This document shows positions 54,640-63,942 of a DNA stretch of 64,000 nucleotides, in pieces (position 1 is the stretch's first letter; each line of letters starts with the position of its first letter). A program made the translations under genes and the position numbers. Where the stretch lies: the NCBI RefSeq assembly GCF_000826655.1, contig NZ_JXJO01000019.1:62001-126000 (forward strand), in the 5' to 3' direction. The notes under the pieces were generated by a model, which did not search any database, had not been told where the DNA came from, and saw only the letters and a list, made by a program, of their open reading frames with translations. This DNA comes from Psychroserpens damuponensis. GTDB lineage: Bacteria; Bacteroidota; Bacteroidia; Flavobacteriales; Flavobacteriaceae.

Positions 54640-55488
54640 TTATAGTGCTCCCCATTCTTTTAGAGATGTCATATTTTGCTTCACATAGTTTTGGTTTCCA
54701 GCTTCTTTAGCCTTAGCCATAGATTTTTTAGCTAACTCAATAGCTCCTTTTTTGTCTCCTACTGCTGCATAGATTAAAGATTGTTTTCTCAACTGCCAAA
54801 ATTTAGGATCATCAATCATTGACATTGCTTTATCCATCCACTCTTTTGCTTTATTAGCGTCTTTACCAGAAGTTAAGTAGTATTCTGCAGCTGCATAATA
54901 ATCATTAGCACTTGGTCCAGCCATAATTTTGTCAATTGTAGTGGTAACCATCTTATCTGTAGGTACTGTAAAAGGAATTCCTACATATGACTTTTCCCAA
55001 ATAATATCAATAGTTCCACCAGATGTAGTGATATTATTAATATCTATAGTCATTGTTTCAATATTCATTGGTATTTGAATCACATCAACTTTAGCTGTTG
55101 CTACAACCTTACTATCATCCCATTTTGATGGTAATCCCCAATTTTCAGTATCTGCGTAGAACATTACATCCCATTGTGTCGCAGAGTTTAACTTTGTAAA
55201 TAAAGCATATGATCCGGCTTTTACATCCTGACCTGCTATCTTTACGTCATCACTAAACGTGATAATTGTGTTTTTATTTGCTCCTGTTCTCCACATGCCA
55301 CCAAATGGTTCTAAATCTCCAAAAATGGTTCTTCCTTTAACGCTTGGTCTAGAATATTCAATGGTAATATCTGTTAGTCCAACTTTTTGTTCAAATTTTG
55401 CCAACGGACTTGGAGCAGGCGTTTCAATTTGCGCGTAAGTAGCAAAAGTCATTGCAAATACTGTAAATACTAGTAATACTTTTTTCAT
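54640..55488 (-). CDS. Exported DUF2911-family protein with TPR-like tail
   Basis: 282 residues with signal peptide MKKVLLVFTVFAMTFATYAQ. The DUF2911 domain runs from ~25 to ~185: VGLTDITIEYSRPSVKGRTIFG, PFGGMWRTGANKNTIITFS, DVKAGSYALFT. The last ~90 residues are helical repeats (YYAAAEYYLTSGKDANKAKEWMDKAM). Common in Bacteroidetes, function unknown. The -7 box is TAAATTTG at 55529-55522. Confidence 0.85.
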   Translation of the reverse strand: MKKVLLVFTVFAMTFATYAQIETPAPSPLAKFEQKVGLTDITIEYSRPSVKGRTIFGDLEPFGGMWRTGANKNTIITFSDDVKIAGQDVKAGSYALFTKLNSATQWDVMFYADTENWGLPSKWDDSKVVATAKVDVIQIPMNIETMTIDINNITTSGGTIDIIWEKSYVGIPFTVPTDKMVTTTIDKIMAGPSANDYYAAAEYYLTSGKDANKAKEWMDKAMSMIDDPKFWQLRKQSLIYAAVGDKKGAIELAKKSMAKAKEAGNQNYVKQNMTSLKEWGAL

Positions 55489-55529: not shown

Positions 55530-55721
55530 CAAACAAGCGCTTCTTTAGTTTGTTAAGGAAACCTTAAATAAAGCAACACAACGCATATAAATACTTAAAA
55601 AATACTCTTATTTTTAAGTAGGACTATAAATTAATTTAACCATCGATACTCCAACATTTAAATGAGGTAGCCTGCTAATTTCTATATAATTACCAACCTA
55701 AATATAATGTCTTGTTAATTT

Positions 55722-55764
55722 TGTTTAACAATTTAAAAAAAAAGATAAACATTTTGTATTTTTG
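55722..55764 (+). promoter_or_regulatory. Composite promoter/operator of the TetR-led photolyase module
   Basis: Inverted half-sites TGTTTA (55722-55727) and TAAACA (55746-55751) 18 bases apart, then TTTTG and the -7 box TATTTTTG (55757-55764), 18 bases before ATG 55783. The same order and spacings recur at 62893-62935. Likely the binding site of the TetR protein. Confidence 0.65.
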
Positions 55765-55782
55765 TACTACAAATTAGAAGTC

Positions 55783-56439
55783 ATGGCAAAAAAGAAAAAC
55801 ATTTCAGAAAACGATATCATTGGGTTTTATATGGATTATGTTTTAGAACATAATGAGCAACCAAAAACTGTGTATGCTTTTACAAAAGCAAATAACTTTG
55901 AGGAACAAAAATTTTATGATCATTTTAGCTCATTTAAGATTTTAGAAAATCAAATATTTACGGCATTTTTCTCCAATACGATGTCTGTTTTAGAACAAAG
56001 TGACGACTATCTTTCGTTTGATGCACGCAACAAGTTATTGAGTTTCTACTTTACATTTTTTGAAAATTTAACGGCTAATCGTAGTTATGTAAAATTTGCG
56101 CTAGAGCAACACAAGACCAACTTAAAAAGTTTGAGGCTGCTTAAAGATTTAAAGCATGAATTTACAACTTATATTGAACATTTAGAAATTGATCTTATAG
56201 AAACCAAACAAGAACAAATTGATAAAATTCAACAAAGAGGACTTAAAGAAGCTGCATGGGTACAATTACTGTTAACATTAAAATTTTGGTTGGATGATAC
56301 GTCTGCAAGATTTGAAAAAACAGATATTTTTATTGAAAAATCTGTCAATACAAGTTTTGACGTTTTAGATGTTGCTCCAATTAGAAGTTTAATTGACTTT
56401 GGAAAATTCATTTTCAAAGAAAAAGTACAAATGAATTAA
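55783..56439 (+). CDS. TetR-family transcriptional regulator
   Basis: 218 residues from ATG 55783 (an earlier TTG lies inside the promoter). The N-terminal ~55 residues (ISENDIIGFYMDYVLEHNEQPKTVYAFTKANNFEEQKFYDHF) form the TetR helix-turn-helix; the C-terminal all-helical part (LLSFYFTFFENLTANRSYVKFAL, WVQLLLTLKFWLDDTS) is the TetR_C type seen next to ABC1 kinases in flavobacteria. It probably represses its own promoter and the second unit at 62893. Confidence 0.82.
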   Translation: MAKKKNISENDIIGFYMDYVLEHNEQPKTVYAFTKANNFEEQKFYDHFSSFKILENQIFTAFFSNTMSVLEQSDDYLSFDARNKLLSFYFTFFENLTANRSYVKFALEQHKTNLKSLRLLKDLKHEFTTYIEHLEIDLIETKQEQIDKIQQRGLKEAAWVQLLLTLKFWLDDTSARFEKTDIFIEKSVNTSFDVLDVAPIRSLIDFGKFIFKEKVQMN

Positions 56440-56450
56440 TTCAACGACTT

Positions 56451-57761
56451 ATGAAAACTATTGACAAAATACCCACATCTAAAATTCAACGTGCTACTAA
56501 ATTAGTGTCTACAGGTGCCAAAGTTGGTGTAAATTATTTAAAATATTATGGCGATAAGCTTACAAAAAATGACATTGAGGCTAAACAACGCTTAAACCAA
56601 AATAATGCAGAAGACATTTATGATGGTCTAAAACAACTTAAAGGAAGTGCGCTCAAAGTTGCACAAATGTTAAGTATGGAAAAGAGCATCTTACCACAAG
56701 CTTATGTAGAGAAATTTTCATTGGCGCAATTCTCTGTGCCACCACTTTCTCCTCCTTTAGTTTTAAAGACATTTAAAAAGTACTTCGGAAAATCGCCAAA
56801 CGACATTTTTGATACTTTCAATGCAACTTCTGTAAATGCTGCAAGTATAGGACAAGTCCATATTGCAGAAAAAAACGGGAAGAAACTTGCTGTGAAAATC
56901 CAATATCCAGGAGTTGCAGAGAGTATTTCATCAGATCTTGCCATGGTTAAACCTATTGCAATGAGTATGTTTAATATAAAAGGTAAAGATTCTGACAAGT
57001 ATTTCAAAGAAGTAGAAGGCAAATTGATTGAAGAAACGAATTACATTTTAGAGGTTGAGCAAAGCAAAGAAATTGCTCAAAAATGTGCTCACATTCCTAA
57101 TTTGCTAATTCCAGAATACTATGAAGAATTATCTTCAGAACGTATCATCACAATGGACTATATGGAAGGTCAGCACCTTTCAGAATTTACCTCTCACAAT
57201 ACAAATCAAGAATTTTCTAATACAATAGGTCAGGCGCTTTGGGATTTCTATATGTTTCAAATCCATAATTTGAGAAAAGTGCATGCAGATCCTCATCCTG
57301 GAAATTTTTTAGTCTCCAACGATGCTCAACTTATTGCACTAGATTTTGGTTGCATGAAAACCATACCTAATGAATTTTATGTGCCTTATTTTGAATTAGC
57401 CGAAAAAGAAAATATCGACAATCGTGAGAAGTTTGTAGAAAAATTGTACCAACTAGAAATATTAAGAGCCGATGACAATGCTAATGAAGTTGCATTTTTT
57501 ACTGAGATGTTTCATGAAATGCTAAGTCTTTTTACACAACCTTTACATGCAGAAACCTTTGACTTTTCTAATGGAGAGTTCTTCGGAAAAATAGCCGAAC
57601 TCGGCGAACGTTATTCAAAAAACACTGAATTGCGTAAAATGAATGCAAATCGAGGATCAAAACACTTTATTTATATCAATCGAACATTTTTCGGACTGTA
57701 TAATTTAATGTTTGATTTAAAAGCAAACACAATTAAAATCAATAATTTCAAAACTTTATAA
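56451..57761 (+). CDS. ABC1/AarF/UbiB-family atypical kinase
   Basis: 436 residues. Ala-rich loop AASIGQVHIA (130-139) replaces the normal P-loop, AVKIQYPG carries the ATP lysine, ADPHPGNFLV and ALDFGCMK are the catalytic Asp motifs. The N-terminal family motif is KVAQ (69-72) instead of the usual KxGQ. UbiB-type proteins support quinone synthesis or lipid metabolism with weak ATPase activity. No C-terminal membrane helices are obvious. Its stop overlaps the next ATG by one base (TAATG). Confidence 0.9.
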   Translation: MKTIDKIPTSKIQRATKLVSTGAKVGVNYLKYYGDKLTKNDIEAKQRLNQNNAEDIYDGLKQLKGSALKVAQMLSMEKSILPQAYVEKFSLAQFSVPPLSPPLVLKTFKKYFGKSPNDIFDTFNATSVNAASIGQVHIAEKNGKKLAVKIQYPGVAESISSDLAMVKPIAMSMFNIKGKDSDKYFKEVEGKLIEETNYILEVEQSKEIAQKCAHIPNLLIPEYYEELSSERIITMDYMEGQHLSEFTSHNTNQEFSNTIGQALWDFYMFQIHNLRKVHADPHPGNFLVSNDAQLIALDFGCMKTIPNEFYVPYFELAEKENIDNREKFVEKLYQLEILRADDNANEVAFFTEMFHEMLSLFTQPLHAETFDFSNGEFFGKIAELGERYSKNTELRKMNANRGSKHFIYINRTFFGLYNLMFDLKANTIKINNFKTL

Positions 57762-58375
57762 TGACTTATATTGATAGTAATGCGTTTGATACATTTGATC
57801 ATTTATACCGAATTAACTTGATTAATAGTTGTTCAGGTTACAAGTCTGCTAATTTAATAGGCACCAAATGTAGTAATGGTATTGAAAATGTGGCTGTTTT
57901 CAGTTCTGTTACTCATATTGGGTCAAATCCTGCAATGCTCGGTTTTTTTTGTAGGCCAACAACAGTAACTAGAAATACATACAACAACATTAAAACTACT
58001 GGTTTATATACAATTAATCATATACATGAGTCCATTTTAGAAGATGCACATCACACATCAGCCAAATATGATTCTCATATTTCAGAATTTGATAAAACCA
58101 GGCTCATTTCAGAATATAAAAAAGAATTTAAAGCGCCTTTTGTAAAAAATGCTCCACTTCAATTAGCAATGAAATTTGTTGAAGAATATCACATTAAAGC
58201 CAATGACACCATATTAGTTATTGGAAAAATTGTAGGAATACACGTCGATAATGAACTACTTAAAGACGATGGATTTATAGATCTTGCTAAAGCCAATATT
58301 GCAGCAATTAATGGTTTAGATGGTTATGCTGTACCAAAATCAACTACTAGACTAGAGTATCAACGTCCAAAATAA
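57761..58375 (+). CDS. Flavin reductase-like FMN-binding protein
   Basis: 204 residues of the split-barrel flavin reductase family: LINSCSGYKSANLIGTKCSNGIENVAVFSSVTHIGSNPAMLGFFCRP covers the FMN-binding start in pieces, and ARNT-like TVTRNTYNNIKTTGLYTIN is the following helix. Such enzymes reduce FMN or act as FMN-bound reductases. Coupled to the ABC1 kinase gene; possibly a supply of reduced flavin for the photolyases, an inference. Confidence 0.82.
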   Translation: MTYIDSNAFDTFDHLYRINLINSCSGYKSANLIGTKCSNGIENVAVFSSVTHIGSNPAMLGFFCRPTTVTRNTYNNIKTTGLYTINHIHESILEDAHHTSAKYDSHISEFDKTRLISEYKKEFKAPFVKNAPLQLAMKFVEEYHIKANDTILVIGKIVGIHVDNELLKDDGFIDLAKANIAAINGLDGYAVPKSTTRLEYQRPK

Positions 58376-58383
58376 TTTAAAAA

Positions 58384-59808
58384 ATGAAAATTCTCGTCAC
58401 AGGTGCAACAGGATATATTGGCAAACGGTTAATACCGTTATTGGCTAATAGTGATCATCAGGTTGTGTGTACAGTGAGAGATAAATTGCGAGCTGATAAA
58501 AGTTATGATTTAGACGATGCCATTGATGTAGTTGAAGCCGATTTTTTAAAACCAGAAACACTTCATGAGATTCCTAAGGATATTGATGTTGCCTTTTATT
58601 TAATTCACTCCATGTCTAACTCTTCAAAAGATTTTGAATCTTTAGAAGAGCGTTGTGCAGTCAATTTTAAAGAACAACTTGAAAATACTAACGTTAAACA
58701 AGTTATTTACCTCAGCGGAATTACAAATGAAGACAACCTTTCAAAGCATTTACAATCGCGTAAAAATGTAGAAGATAGATTGCAATCAAACCATTATGCT
58801 TTAACTATTTTTAAAGCAGGTATTATTGTAGGATCAGGAAGCTCGTCATTTGAAATCATTAGAGATTTAGTTGAGAAATTACCGTTTATGATTGCTCCAA
58901 AGTGGTTAAATACAAAAACGCAACCGCTCGCTGTAAGAGATGTACTCGCTTTTTTACATAGAAGTGTTGGTAGAGAAGAACTCTATAATAAATCATTTGA
59001 TGTTTTTGGACCAGAAATTTTAACCTATAAGCAAATGCTGTTGCAGTTTGCAGAGGTAAGAGAACTTAAGCGTTACATTCTTACTGTCCCAATAATGACG
59101 CCTAAACTGTCGTCATATTGGTTATATTTTGTAACGTCAACATCATATAAATTGGCAACATCATTGGTTGACAGCATGGGTATACAAATTATTGGGAAGC
59201 CTAGTAATATTAACGAACTGCTAAATGTGACACCCTTATCTTACAAAGAGGCAGTCTCTCTAGCATTTGAAAAAATTGAGCAAAATAGTATCGTGTCTAG
59301 CTGGAAAGACTCCATGGTAAGTAGCGGACGATTAAAAAATCAACTACATAAATACATTAACGTTCCAAAATATGGATGTTTTAAAGACTATAAAGAGCGT
59401 CCTATTATAAATGCCGAAAAAACTATGGATAAAATTTGGCGTATTGGCGGAAAAAATGGTTGGTATTATGGCACAGTGCTTTGGAAAATTAGAGGTTATA
59501 TAGACAAATTGTTTGGTGGTATAGGATTACGACGAGGTAGAACAAGTCCAACCCATTTAGATGTTGGTGACGCACTTGATTTTTGGAGAGTGATATTTGC
59601 AGATAAAACACAACAAAAACTTTTATTATATGCCGAAATGCGCCTTCCTGGAGAAGCTTGGTTAGAATTTAAGATAGAAGACAACTTGCTTAAACAAACA
59701 GCTACGTTTAGACCTCGCGGACTTTGGGGACGGCTTTATTGGTATAGTGTTTTACCATTTCATGGGTTTATTTTTAAAGGTATGATAAATAAGCTTGTTG
59801 ATGTCTAA
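58384..59808 (+). CDS. NAD(P)-binding SDR protein with DUF2867 domain
   Basis: 474 residues. Extended-SDR Rossmann start [20 protein letters not shown], then VAFYLIHSM and [10 protein letters not shown], resembling atypical YbjT-like SDRs. The C-terminal ~150 residues are DUF2867 ([36 protein letters not shown]). The reaction is unknown. The last 8 bases overlap the DUF2256 gene. Confidence 0.87.
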
Positions 59809-59944
59809 ACATAAAAAACAACAGCTACCTATCAAAACTTGTACTGTTTGTGAGTTACCATTCACATGGAGAAAAAAATGGAAAAAAAATTGGGAGAATG
59901 TAAAATATTGCAGTGAGAGATGCAGGCGAAACAAAATGATATAG
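59801..59944 (+). CDS. DUF2256 zinc-ribbon-like mini-protein (47 aa)
   Basis: ATG 59801 to TAG 59944. Starts [17 protein letters not shown]; cysteines 14, 17, 37 and 41 make a C-x2-C...C-x3-C zinc site, with [18 protein letters not shown] between. The DUF2256 family is often coded beside photolyase/cryptochrome genes. Overlaps the SDR gene by 8 bases and the photolyase gene by 25, so the three are translationally linked. Confidence 0.85.
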
Positions 59945-61230
59945 GCTTAGTATGGTTTAGAAATGATTTAAGAGTTAATGATAATTCTGTTTTATCAGAG
60001 GCTATTAAAAACCATAAATCTGTTATTGCATGTTATTGCTTTGATCCTCGTCATTATGAAATCACAACATACGGGTTTAAAAAAACTGAAAAATACAGAG
60101 CTCAATTTTTGATTGAAACAATTGAAGATTTAAAGATAAACCTTAACGCAATACATGTTGAGCTATTAGTTTATCACGAGGTACCTGAACAGATTCTTCC
60201 TGCTTTAGTTAAACAACATCACATCAAATCCATTTACCTGCAAAAAGAATGGACGAGTGAAGAAACTCAAGTTTTAAAAAATGTAAAATTTACTCTTCCT
60301 AAGTTTTTACAATTTCATGAACGCTATGATCAATTTTTATATCATCCAAATGACATAGACTTGAGGTTTGATGAGATTTCTAATGTATTTACTGTATTTA
60401 GAAAAAAAGTTGAAAAATATGGTAATGTTAGAGTTTCCGAAGACCTACAAACTTTAGAAAAAATAAAACATTTTAATAATGACACTCAAATCCCAACTCT
60501 TAAAGATTTAGGTTTAACATCATTTGAAGTTGACCCAAACTCTGCATTTCCATTTAAAGGTGGTGAAAAAAGTGCATTACATAGATTAAATAATTACCTC
60601 TTTGCAACTAAAAATATCGAATTCTACAAAAAGACTAGAAATGGCTTAATTGGAATAGATTATAGTTCAAAATTTTCGCCTTGGTTAGCAAATGGTAGTA
60701 TTTCGGCGAGGACAATTTATTGGAATATCAAAAAATTTGAGGAAAATCACATAAAAAACGAATCGACTTACTGGCTCATTTTTGAATTAATTTGGAGAGA
60801 TTATTTTAAATATGTGTCATTAAAATATCAAAATGACATTTTTAAAATCGGTGGGATTTTACGTAAAGATTATGATTGGAACTCCAATGCGCATAACATT
60901 CAAAAATGGATTAATGGAGAAACAGAATCTTCTTTTGTAAATGCTAATATGAGAGAAATAAAAAAAACCGGATGGATGAGCAATCGTGGTCGTCAAAATG
61001 TAGCCTCATTTTTTGCTAAAGAGTTATTGCAAGATTGGCGCATTGGAGCAGCCTATTTTGAATCTATGCTAATTGATTACGATGTACATTCTAACTACGG
61101 AAATTGGATGTACGTGGCAGGCGTTGGTAATGATCCTAGAGATCGTAAATTTAATGTGCGTTTACAAGCTGAGCGTTATGATAGTCAGGGACAATTTCAA
61201 CAAATGTGGCTACAAGAAACATTATTTTAA
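59920..61230 (+). CDS. Cryptochrome-DASH/photolyase
   Basis: 436 residues. N-terminal antenna domain [14 protein letters not shown], then the FAD domain: [53 protein letters not shown], and the DASH-like [22 protein letters not shown] enzymes repair cyclobutane dimers mainly in single-stranded DNA and bind FAD and often MTHF. The start at 59920 lies within the DUF2256 gene. The stop is directly followed by the next ATG. Confidence 0.9.
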
Positions 61231-62763
61231 ATGAAAACACTTAGACTTATATTAGGAGACCAACTCAATTTAAAACATTCATGGTTCAAAGATACTAACG
61301 ACGATGTGGTCTATTGTCTTTTTGAAATGCGCCAAGAAACAGACTATGTAAAACATCATATTCAAAAAGTGATAGGTTTTTTTGCTGCGATGCGACAATT
61401 TGCTACAGATCTAAATTTAAACGGTCATCATGTAGTTTATTATAAATTAAATGACAAAGAGAATACACAACTCTTAACAGACAATCTCAACAATCTAATT
61501 AAGGAACATGATATAAAACGGTTTGAATATATGTTTCCAGATGAATACAGACTAGATCATCAATTGATAAATTTTTGTAAAACGAGTACACTAGAATGCG
61601 AGGTTTTTTCTGCAGAACACTTTTATACCAATCGCAACGACTTGGCACTCTTTTTTGATGGTAAAAAACAATACCTCATGGAAACTTTCTACAGAGAAAT
61701 GCGTAAAAAGCATGATATTTTAATGATTGCTGGCCAACCTGAAGGTGGTAAATGGAATTATGATAAAAGCAATCGAAATAAATGGAAAGGCGATATTTCC
61801 ATACCGAAATACAAAGGGTTTAGAACTGATATTTCCGAAGTAAAAAAAGATATAGATACAGCAAAGGTCGAGACCATAGGACGATTTGATACCAAAACAT
61901 TCTCCTACCCTATTTCTCGAATACAAGCAATTGAGCAGCTTAAATACTTTTGTGAAGAATTACTTATTCACTTTGGAGATTATCAAGATGCCATGCATAC
62001 AGATGAAGTATTTTTATTTCATTCGAGATTATCGTTTGCTATGAATTTAAAGCTTATTTCCCCTAGAGATATCGTAAACACAGTGATGAATTATTATAGA
62101 AAATATGGCGAAAATATTGATATATCACAAGTTGAAGGTTTTGTAAGGCAAGTTATAGGTTGGCGAGAATATATGAGAGGTATGTATTGGGCTTTTATGC
62201 CAGAGTACAAATCTAAAAACGAGTTGAACAATCATAATAAACTCGCCAACTTTTTTTGGACGGGAGCTACCAAAATGAATTGTTTAAGTCATGCCATAAA
62301 TAATTCTTTAGATAATGGTTATGCACATCACATCCAACGCCTTATGATAACTGGTAATTATGCATTATTAACGCAAACACACCCAGACGAAGTTGATCAT
62401 TGGTATTTAGGGATTTATGTTGATGCCATTGAGTGGGTTCAACTTACAAATACAAGAGGCATGAGTCAATTTGCAGATGGCGGAAAGATTGCAACAAAAC
62501 CCTATGTTTCGTCTGGATCTTATATTAACAAAATGAGTAATTACTGCAAGGATTGTCATTATAATAAAGACAAAAAAATTGAAGATGACGCATGCCCTTT
62601 TAATAGTTTATATTGGAATTTTTTAGATGATAAACGTGAGCAACTTAGTAAAAATTATAGAATGAGAATGATGTATAGTTTACTAGACAAAATGAATGCT
62701 AACGATCTTCAAAATATTAAAAAGAAAGCACAACATATTATAGAACATCAAGATAAATACTAA
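61231..62763 (+). CDS. Iron-sulfur bacterial cryptochrome/(6-4) photolyase (PhrB/FeS-BCP type)
   Basis: 510 residues. Begins LRLILGDQLNLKHSWF, as in the FeS-BCP class; FAD domain with EGFVRQVIGWREYMRGMYW. The four iron-sulfur cysteines are C351, C439, C442 and C455 (NYCKDCHY, DACPFN), each one position from those reported for Agrobacterium PhrB (350, 438, 441, 454). Members repair (6-4) photoproducts or act as photoreceptors; they bind FAD, a lumazine and a 4Fe-4S cluster. Adjacent to cry-DASH with no gap. Confidence 0.93.
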   Translation: MKTLRLILGDQLNLKHSWFKDTNDDVVYCLFEMRQETDYVKHHIQKVIGFFAAMRQFATDLNLNGHHVVYYKLNDKENTQLLTDNLNNLIKEHDIKRFEYMFPDEYRLDHQLINFCKTSTLECEVFSAEHFYTNRNDLALFFDGKKQYLMETFYREMRKKHDILMIAGQPEGGKWNYDKSNRNKWKGDISIPKYKGFRTDISEVKKDIDTAKVETIGRFDTKTFSYPISRIQAIEQLKYFCEELLIHFGDYQDAMHTDEVFLFHSRLSFAMNLKLISPRDIVNTVMNYYRKYGENIDISQVEGFVRQVIGWREYMRGMYWAFMPEYKSKNELNNHNKLANFFWTGATKMNCLSHAINNSLDNGYAHHIQRLMITGNYALLTQTHPDEVDHWYLGIYVDAIEWVQLTNTRGMSQFADGGKIATKPYVSSGSYINKMSNYCKDCHYNKDKKIEDDACPFNSLYWNFLDDKREQLSKNYRMRMMYSLLDKMNANDLQNIKKKAQHIIEHQDKY

Positions 62764-62892
62764 ATAGTGCTTACAGAAAGGACAGCAGGTACATCATATT
62801 ATATTTATCTTAAAAACTGGTAATTTAACACAGTATCAACACCTAGAAAACACTTTTAAATACAGAAAACTCTTATAACTATGTTAATGTTT

Positions 62893-62935
62893 TGTTTAAG
62901 CATATGTTTTTAATGTTAAACATTTTGTAACTTTG
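62893..62935 (+). promoter_or_regulatory. Second copy of the module promoter/operator
   Basis: TGTTTA (62893-62898), 18 bases, TAAACA (62917-62922), TTTTG, then the -7 box TAACTTTG (62928-62935), 20 bases before GTG 62956. Same spacings as at 55722-55764. The rest of 62764-62892 holds no gene or repeat. Confidence 0.65.
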
Positions 62936-62955: not shown

Positions 62956-63381
62956 GTGATTTTAAACACCACACATTTAAATAAAGCCCATAAAATTACC
63001 ATATCAAAATTGGTAGGAAGTTCGTTCTCATTTATTAAATCAATACAAATGGGTGGCATTGGATCTAAGCGCATGATCATTGATAAAGTGAGTCCTAATT
63101 TACAGCAATATATTAATAAGGTATCAGATATAAACTATGCAAATATAGAGATGAGACCTAATGGAATATTAATTTATATCAATAAAGGACTTAATAGTTT
63201 CACTTGGATTATTCCTTTTTACCATTTAGTTATTTATAAAACCAATGGACTTAGTATTCATGCTCAAGGAAAATATATTAATTTTAAAAATAATAATATG
63301 TTTAAGGACAATAAAGTATTTATGTCTAAGCTCATGGATGCTAAAGTAAAATTTGATGAACGTTACAGTTTTCAATTTTAA
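62956..63381 (+). CDS. Hypothetical protein of the photolyase module
   Basis: 141 residues, GTG start placed right after the promoter. No family recognised. Basic start (HLNKAHKITISKLVG), a strand-rich middle (MGGIGSKRMIIDKV, NGILIYINKGLNSFTWIIPFYHLVIY) and polar end. No signal peptide and no clear membrane helix, although FTWIIPFYHLVIY is hydrophobic. It shares its promoter design with the TetR gene and precedes DUF2805 by 3 bases, so it probably belongs to the light/redox module. Confidence 0.55.
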   Translation: MILNTTHLNKAHKITISKLVGSSFSFIKSIQMGGIGSKRMIIDKVSPNLQQYINKVSDINYANIEMRPNGILIYINKGLNSFTWIIPFYHLVIYKTNGLSIHAQGKYINFKNNNMFKDNKVFMSKLMDAKVKFDERYSFQF

Positions 63382-63384
63382 TGT

Positions 63385-63657
63385 ATGAAATTAGATAGTA
63401 TTACGACAGATAGAATTATAGAAATGGCTTGGGAAGATCGAACCACATTTGAAGCAATTAAGTTTCAATTTGGTTTAAAAGAACAACAAGTTATTGAATT
63501 AATGCGCAGAGAAATGAAACCTAAAAGTTTCAAAATGTGGCGTAAACGTGTTCAAGGAAGAAAAACTAAGCACGAAAAATTAAGAGTTTTTCAAGAGGGA
63601 CGCTTTAAATGTACTAGACAAAAACAAATAACACAAAACTCTATTTCTAAACGATGA
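63385..63657 (+). CDS. DUF2805 (TIGR03643) family protein
   Basis: 90 residues; the family core is DRIIEMAWEDRTTFEAIKFQFGLKE, then EQQVIELMRREMKPKSFKMWRKRVQGRKTKH in pieces. It looks like a small helix-turn-helix protein and is usually found beside cryptochrome/photolyase genes. Possible DNA-binding role; not shown. Followed by a small helical gene after 60 bases. Confidence 0.82.
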   Translation: MKLDSITTDRIIEMAWEDRTTFEAIKFQFGLKEQQVIELMRREMKPKSFKMWRKRVQGRKTKHEKLRVFQEGRFKCTRQKQITQNSISKR

Positions 63658-63717: not shown

Positions 63718-63942
63718 ATGGACCTAATAAAAAAAGCCTCAGAATTTGAGCAGCGAAAAATGAAATCGCTTTCAACTAGTGATCGTGTAAAAATTTCACG
63801 TGAAGCAAAATCCTTAATATTAGAATTAAATAAGATATATAAGGAAAAGAAAGATGAAAAAATCATGGATACAATGAAACGTATCACTGCAATTAAACGC
63901 AAAGTAGAAAAGCGCCTCAAAGGTGCGCCCTTAACAGCATAA
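63718..63942 (+). CDS. Small charged helical protein (74 aa)
   Basis: Almost wholly helical and rich in K, E and R: MDLIKKASEFEQRKMKSL at the start, ILELNKIYKEKKDEKIMD in the middle, AIKRKVEKRLKGAPLTA at the end. It could form a coiled coil. No family recognised. Last gene visible; probable tail of the photolyase module. Confidence 0.5.
   Translation: MDLIKKASEFEQRKMKSLSTSDRVKISREAKSLILELNKIYKEKKDEKIMDTMKRITAIKRKVEKRLKGAPLTA

Follow-up and report, generated by a model that had tools for sequence, protein, structure and literature searches.

The stretch of DNA analysed here, from the marine bacterium Psychroserpens damuponensis (64,000 nucleotides (nt), contig NZ_JXJO01000019.1, positions 62,001-126,000; the window) carries two composite promoter sites, one in front of the gene for a TetR-fold protein (tetR) and one 7.2 kb later, in front of the gene for a 141-amino-acid (aa) protein (orf141). 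Which regulator reads them? An earlier note on this DNA took the TetR-fold protein, as the simplest choice, to control both units and itself. Our comparison of 295 genomes, with 149 of the family Flavobacteriaceae and 145 of the class Bacteroidia outside the family, points instead to a CarH-like protein encoded on another contig, which is very probably the reader of the sites. We consider it quite probable that, as a whole, a CarH/LitR-like repressor of the MerR type uses both sites as operators and has a photoprotection regulon. The comparative basis of this model consists of operator conservation, co-occurrence with the CarH-like protein, covariation of its recognition helix with the site, and promoter geometry.

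Two composite sites of the same design

The putative operators and their -7 boxes are located as follows; TAnnTTTG is the Bacteroidetes -7 consensus, and the core is defined below.

55720..55751, + strand: operator 1, TTTGTTTAAC-N14-GATAAACA, TnnACA half-sites in inverted orientation; core, one mismatch allowed, up to 600 nt upstream of tetR in 82/94 loci
55757..55764, + strand: -7 box of operator 1, TATTTTTG; strict TAnnTTTG at +35 in 24/70 tetR operators
62891..62922, + strand: operator 2, TTTGTTTAAG-N14-GTTAAACA; at least two sites in 66/80 named tetR loci (up to 20 kb each)
62928..62935, + strand: -7 box of operator 2, TAACTTTG; TAnnTTTG at +35 in 16/22 second sites

Direct reading of site 1 gives TGTTTA (55722-55727), 18 bases, TAAACA (55746-55751), TTTTG (55752-55756) and TATTTTTG (55757-55764). 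Site 2 reads TGTTTA (62893-62898), 18 bases, TAAACA (62917-62922), TTTTG (62923-62927) and TAACTTTG (62928-62935). The spacings are identical and the 18-base interiors differ, which confirms the composite order reported in the earlier note. That note had named hundreds of equal matches across the genome as an outcome that would speak against it. Across the 3,945,764 bases of the genome, the 43-base pattern TGTTTA-N18-TAAACA-TTTTG-TAnnTTTG matches exactly at the two window sites and nowhere else; allowing up to two mismatches gives six rows, the exact ones included, against five in a reversed control. The outcome named in the note thus did not arise.

The bare 12-base pattern TGTTTA-N18-TAAACA is not enriched in the window (14 matches against 17 expected, up to two mismatches) or in the genome (110 rows against 114 control rows, up to one mismatch), and was dropped as a genome scan because it is too unspecific. 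Four of its seven exact places in the genome are intergenic (both window sites, one at crtI and one at a GLPGLI gene), and the other three fall inside open reading frames (ORFs) of 347, 428 and 517 aa. All four intergenic places have a longer core in common, TTTGTTTAA-N16-TTAAACA, which site 2 matches exactly and site 1 with one mismatch (GATAAACA). This extended core is enriched in the 149 family genomes, with 437 strand-rows against 7 in the reversed control.

The arrangement is conserved in relatives. The TetR-fold protein is present in 95/149 family genomes. In 69/90 tetR loci the 200 nt before the gene contain a core with no more than one mismatch, compared to 3/1337 background windows; other half-site spacings occur in 0 to 4 of the 90. 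This test covered 90 of the 95 tetR genomes, and the 600-nt test 94, G147 having no upstream DNA. In 80 tetR loci of named relatives (Psychroserpens, Arenibacter, Olleya, Lacinutrix, Gelidibacter and Winogradskyella among them), sites counted anywhere in the locus number at least two in 66, one in nine and none in five. The conservation of both sites supports the earlier proposal that one regulator serves both units, and a shared regulator is well supported by these comparisons. ORFs behind the sites in 30 relatives' loci resemble crtI, carH, tetR, orf141, fasciclin, START-like, DUF2867 and TspO proteins, as judged by eye except for one fasciclin protein that was scanned.

The sites follow the CarH-like protein

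The strict core is present in 111/149 family genomes. With CarH orthologs defined by at least 41% identity, it is found in 107 of 111 genomes with the ortholog and in 4 of 38 without. TetR by itself is also associated with the core in the family (87/95 with, 24/54 without). Together with its fold, its position directly behind site 1 and the fact that the four core genomes lacking a CarH ortholog all have TetR (4/9 vs 0/29), this speaks for the TetR-fold protein binding both sites and repressing its own operon and the orf141 unit. The association vanishes within the CarH genomes, where TetR makes no difference (83/86 with it, 24/25 without). Among TetR-lacking family genomes, the core is found in 24/25 with CarH and 0/29 without. 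Sites at crtI and carH persist in genomes without any TetR homolog, and of the 25 CarH genomes that lack TetR, 17 carry a core with up to one mismatch directly at carH or behind it (manual count). At the tetR promoters themselves, a site is found in 79/86 CarH genomes vs 3/8 others.

Outside the family, where a match of at least 143 bits was taken as a strong CarH-like match, the core occurs in 57/83 genomes with such a match vs 2/62 others, and 32/91 sites lie within 700 nt of a CarH-like gene, with 0.06 expected. TetR shows no association with the core here (13/32 with vs 46/113 without, odds ratio 1.0).

The recognition helix varies with the site

The recognition helix of the CarH-class proteins, KAHTIRIWEKRY, is nearly invariant, with a mean entropy of 0.04 bits in 59 proteins (G106, which has no N-terminus, was removed) compared to 1.43 bits for the whole protein. 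The TetR-fold protein has no Pfam TetR_N match at E 0.001. Helices are present for a putative N-terminal helix-turn-helix; the recognition helix predicted there is acidic, with E41 in 87/90, and its exposed positions are variable (2.56 bits, n=90). As the reader of a constant site should have a conserved helix, this argues against TetR, and we rejected it as the reader on co-occurrence and recognition-helix variability together. Control of both units by the TetR-fold protein, as the earlier note had it, is thus very improbable.

Changes in the helix are accompanied by changes in the site. In genomes with Ile26 in the CarH-like protein, 73 of 77 sites have T/A at the variable position (TGTTTAA/TTAAACA) and four have T/G. 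None of the eight sites from Lys26 genomes is T/A: five are C/G, and C/A, A/G and T/G occur once each. Three of the eight Lys26 genomes have no usable site, and G135 supplies two of the eight sites and also has a CarH ortholog; its row in the helix and site comparisons is a 33% paralog, which was removed from the CarH-class counts. In the distant class with the helix TLRKWE (Lys26), TGTC-type sites precede the genes of several members themselves; in G038 and G066 such sites stand before tetR as well, despite TetR proteins 62-63% identical to that of the window. Exact TTTGTCTAA-N16-TTAGACA yields 10 strand-rows in the 149 genomes, all in G032, G066 and G135, each of which has a Lys26 protein. 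A one-mismatch scan for the TGTCTAA type returned about 97 rows in 51/149 genomes against about 60 in the control (manual count). Because many of these rows are hybrids or arise by chance, the comparison was confined to exact matches and to sites at carH and tetR. The two distant members with Ile26 have sites of the T type, G025 at tetR and G007 at carH.

At the level of the class, the helix pattern is present in 14 of 19 loci (three from the family), 13 with Ile and one with Met. Ten of the Ile proteins come from outside the family; an exact T-type site follows the gene for six of them, and none follows the gene for the Met protein. Both TAAACA and TAGACA fit TnnACA, the half-site described for known CarH (PMC9304148).

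The Lys26 proteins form a second CarH-like MerR class, mostly with Gly at the His132 place (L171 and L174-L180, in G032, G098, G038, G014, G066, G040, G028 and G135).

Position of the sites relative to the -7 box

Three arrangements are found. Counted from the operator start, strict TAnnTTTG stands at -6 in 45/63 carH promoters, at +15 in 38/41 promoters behind carH (mostly crtI), and at +35 in 24/70 tetR operators (family consensus TATcTTT) and 16/22 second sites; 10/70 tetR operators have it at -6. Where the -7 box stands at one of these places, the repeat either covers it or stops five bases before it, which suits a repressor. The suggestion in the earlier note that the site is placed to block the promoter is supported by this position and by its conservation. 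The same geometry bears on the idea that the sites are no operators but belong to promoters read by an alternative sigma factor: the distance from the right half-site to the -7 box is fixed in tetR and second-site promoters, as a promoter element would have it. The commonest positions differ between carH, crtI-side and tetR or second-site promoters, and three -7 box positions do not fit the footprint of one sigma factor. The repeat is moreover palindromic and varies along with the MerR helix. A sigma factor element is therefore exceedingly improbable.

The CarH-like protein and its signal

The CarH-like gene (G000:C15:201872-202768) is located beside the carotenoid operon. Its product has an N-terminal MerR DNA-binding domain (MerR_1, 58.2 bits, cut-off 21.6) and, by Pfam, a B12-binding domain. 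The Wx9EH capping motif is present, with W143 in this protein, and is found in 57/60 CarH-class proteins; ExHxxG is present in 59/60, this one included. Thermus thermophilus CarH (TtCarH) is its second-best PDB match (E 6.8e-13). The genome encodes a cobalamin adenosyltransferase, so adenosylcobalamin (AdoCbl) is likely available. Light control of the CarH-like protein is likely.

A number of observations weigh against a CarH-type repressor. Genomes without the CarH ortholog have the core only together with TetR, as given above; two of these four, G007 and G025, have distant CarH-like proteins, and the others, G079 and G147, are 81% and 73% complete. The reverse exceptions, with CarH and no strict match, are G092, G020, G135 and G139. 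The genomes are related, so co-occurrence counts are not independent trials. A site is missing at 12/94 tetR promoters, seven of them in CarH genomes, and the core has one mismatch in site 1 itself and two in the genome's own carH site. In the protein, the B12 motif ExHx2G ... SxV/T ... GG, as defined in PMC8156234, is incomplete: a GG after residue 250 is found in 1/60 proteins, and our protein has Phe where V/T is expected. The position of TtCarH His132, which in that protein becomes the second cobalt ligand, is Gln in 57/60 CarH-class proteins, as Gln144 in ours, and the NCBIfam CarH equivalog NF052513 scores 73.8 bits, below its cut-off of 400. The tandem 11-bp direct repeats of known CarH operators (nnnnTnnACAn) were not found in 113 operators and were rejected as a description of the site: same-strand TnnACA at -22, -11, +11 and +22 from the right half-site occurs in 0 to 2%, and the single half-sites fit. 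Because the GG motif, the model cut-off and the tandem operator fail, we refer to the protein as CarH-like and not as CarH.

The substituted residues raise the question of the signal. The protein could read the sites without sensing light through B12, being B12-independent as CarA is, responding to another signal, or acting with a partner as class II LitR does through a LOV protein (PMC9758184). Gln at the His132 place and the lack of GG in 59/60 proteins fit such a protein. A 2023 study describes His132 of TtCarH as critical for tetramer disassembly, with most H132A remaining tetrameric in light, and cites an earlier report that H132A disassembles (PMC10442372). Against such a protein stand the retention of Wx9EH, which according to PMC8156234 is absent from CarA, along with ExHxxG, and the fact that other cobalamin photoreceptors carry Arg, Gln or Tyr where TtCarH has His132, as described by SignatureFinder (PMC11796333). 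Reading of the sites without B12-based light sensing is accordingly unlikely.

The proposed light switch and its relation to known systems

In the model of a light-responsive CarH-like repressor, the protein, presumably with AdoCbl, would bind the inverted repeat of TnnACA half-sites in the dark. It would cover or abut the -7 box and block RNA polymerase. Light would break the cofactor bond and free the promoters. The proposed photoprotection regulon would comprise the crtI operon, carH itself and both gene rows of the window, the first with the TetR-fold protein, ABC1 kinase, flavin reductase and photolyase, the second with orf141, a peroxidase, TspO and a further photolyase.

The same genome contains further sites. 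A core site lies immediately before crtI in an operon of crtI, crtB, a gene for a 149-aa protein and crtY, named from Pfam matches and gene order. The degenerate site TGTTTAA ... ATGAACA precedes the CarH-like gene, which is directly upstream of this operon. A further site, which departs from the core by one mismatch, separates divergently oriented fasciclin and MORN-repeat genes.

The start codon of the CarH-like gene (ATGAACA) falls within the right half-site of its own operator (L007:7763-7792, G000:C15). The same arrangement is found in 46/69 carH-like loci; the carH-like loci were taken from 70 places (30 best matches, TetR-lacking genomes, distant members and some others) and are not a random sample.

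The exact core before the GLPGLI gene (L023:7219-7248, G000:C22) has two similar genes and a gene for a large outer-membrane-like protein in its neighbourhood, judged by eye. We know of no link between the GLPGLI gene and light.

CarH of Thermus thermophilus, Bacillus megaterium and myxobacteria shares with our system the MerR domain, Wx9EH and ExHxxG, the crt-adjacent gene, TnnACA, and a site over promoter elements. It uses three to four tandem 11-bp direct repeats, whereas the sites here are inverted repeats with 18 bases between TGTTTA and TAAACA; here GG is lacking, Gln replaces His132, and sites also precede the photolyase, TspO, peroxidase and TetR-fold/ABC1 rows. Class II LitR of Pseudomonas (PplR, PmlR) likewise exerts MerR-type control over photolyase, CryB, SDR and other light-induced genes, but lacks one B12 domain, needs a LOV protein and binds T(G/A)TACA, as described in PMC9758184. 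CarA of Myxococcus xanthus binds an inverted-repeat site at a crt promoter (PMC9304148); unlike the protein proposed here, it is B12-independent, lacks Wx9EH and requires the antirepressor CarS (PMC9304148, PMC8156234). In Mycobacterium kansasii, light is reported to induce crt, photolyase-tspO and, more weakly, fasciclin genes (PMC9861118). The likeness of these genes to the targets found here supports a light response. The regulators named in that study are of the MarR and TetR types, and CarH is not mentioned.

If the model holds, the light response of Flavobacteriaceae and many other Bacteroidia gains a candidate regulator, together with a DNA motif and a list of genes. Light-induced carotenoids were described in Chryseobacterium lacus, where no car or lit operon was found and a new light regulator was proposed (PMC7064467); the motif makes such cases testable. 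The Gln132 proteins would probe the need for bis-His ligation in CarH-type switching. Literature searches over titles and abstract openings, with few subscription journals, returned no recognised description of the motif or of a flavobacterial CarH regulon. In a tentative wider picture, a CarH-like protein whose light switch has been rebuilt (Gln for His132, no GG) may serve much of Bacteroidia as a master repressor of photoprotection far beyond carotenoids, reading inverted and not tandem repeats. The Lys26 sister class may have moved to TGTCTAA, and TetR-fold/ABC1 may be a COQ9/COQ8-like lipid module within the regulon.

The TetR-fold protein

The TetR-fold protein is probably a target of the regulator and not the reader. 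Its fold is indicated by the TetR_C_23 match, the helices and fold comparison. No match was found among PDB sequences. Among PDB folds, TetR regulators rank higher, with weak E-values, and human COQ9 is at Foldseek rank 23 (TM 0.56). Because these matches are weak, no function is assigned to it.

The gene stands beside that of the ABC1 kinase (window 55783-57761), an adjacency reminiscent of COQ9/COQ8. A TetR-fold gene adjoining an ABC1 kinase gene is common to both cases; they differ in that the COQ9 fold match is weak and ranks below TetR regulators.

Genes behind the two sites

The following genes lie behind site 1 and site 2, and each row would form one transcript.

55783..56439, + strand: TetR-fold protein (TetR_C_23)
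56451..57761, + strand: ABC1/UbiB-like atypical kinase
57761..58375, + strand: flavin reductase-like protein
58384..59808, + strand: NAD(P)-binding protein with DUF2867
59795..59944, + strand: 49-aa Cys-rich ORF, presumably resembling DUF2256
59920..61230, + strand: DASH-family cryptochrome/photolyase (TIGR02765, 499.9 bits, cut-off 317.05)
61231..62763, + strand: deoxyribodipyrimidine photolyase-related protein (DPRP)
62956..63381, + strand: 141-aa protein, translated from GTG; first in the second unit, with neither a Pfam nor an NCBIfam match
63385..63657, + strand: TIGR03643/DUF2805 protein
63718..63942, + strand: 74-aa ORF

The second row continues on the same strand beyond the window with genes for an SDR, glutathione peroxidase, TspO, a START-like protein (a weak match, under the Pfam cut-off) and another photolyase (L029). 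The 141-aa protein belongs to a conserved family (GGVGSKRMIIE..SPN), with orthologs behind second sites in relatives' loci, among the loci listed. Divergent from the tetR row is a gene for a DUF2911 protein (window 54640-55488), and similar-looking divergent genes are found in at least two relatives (L285, L229).

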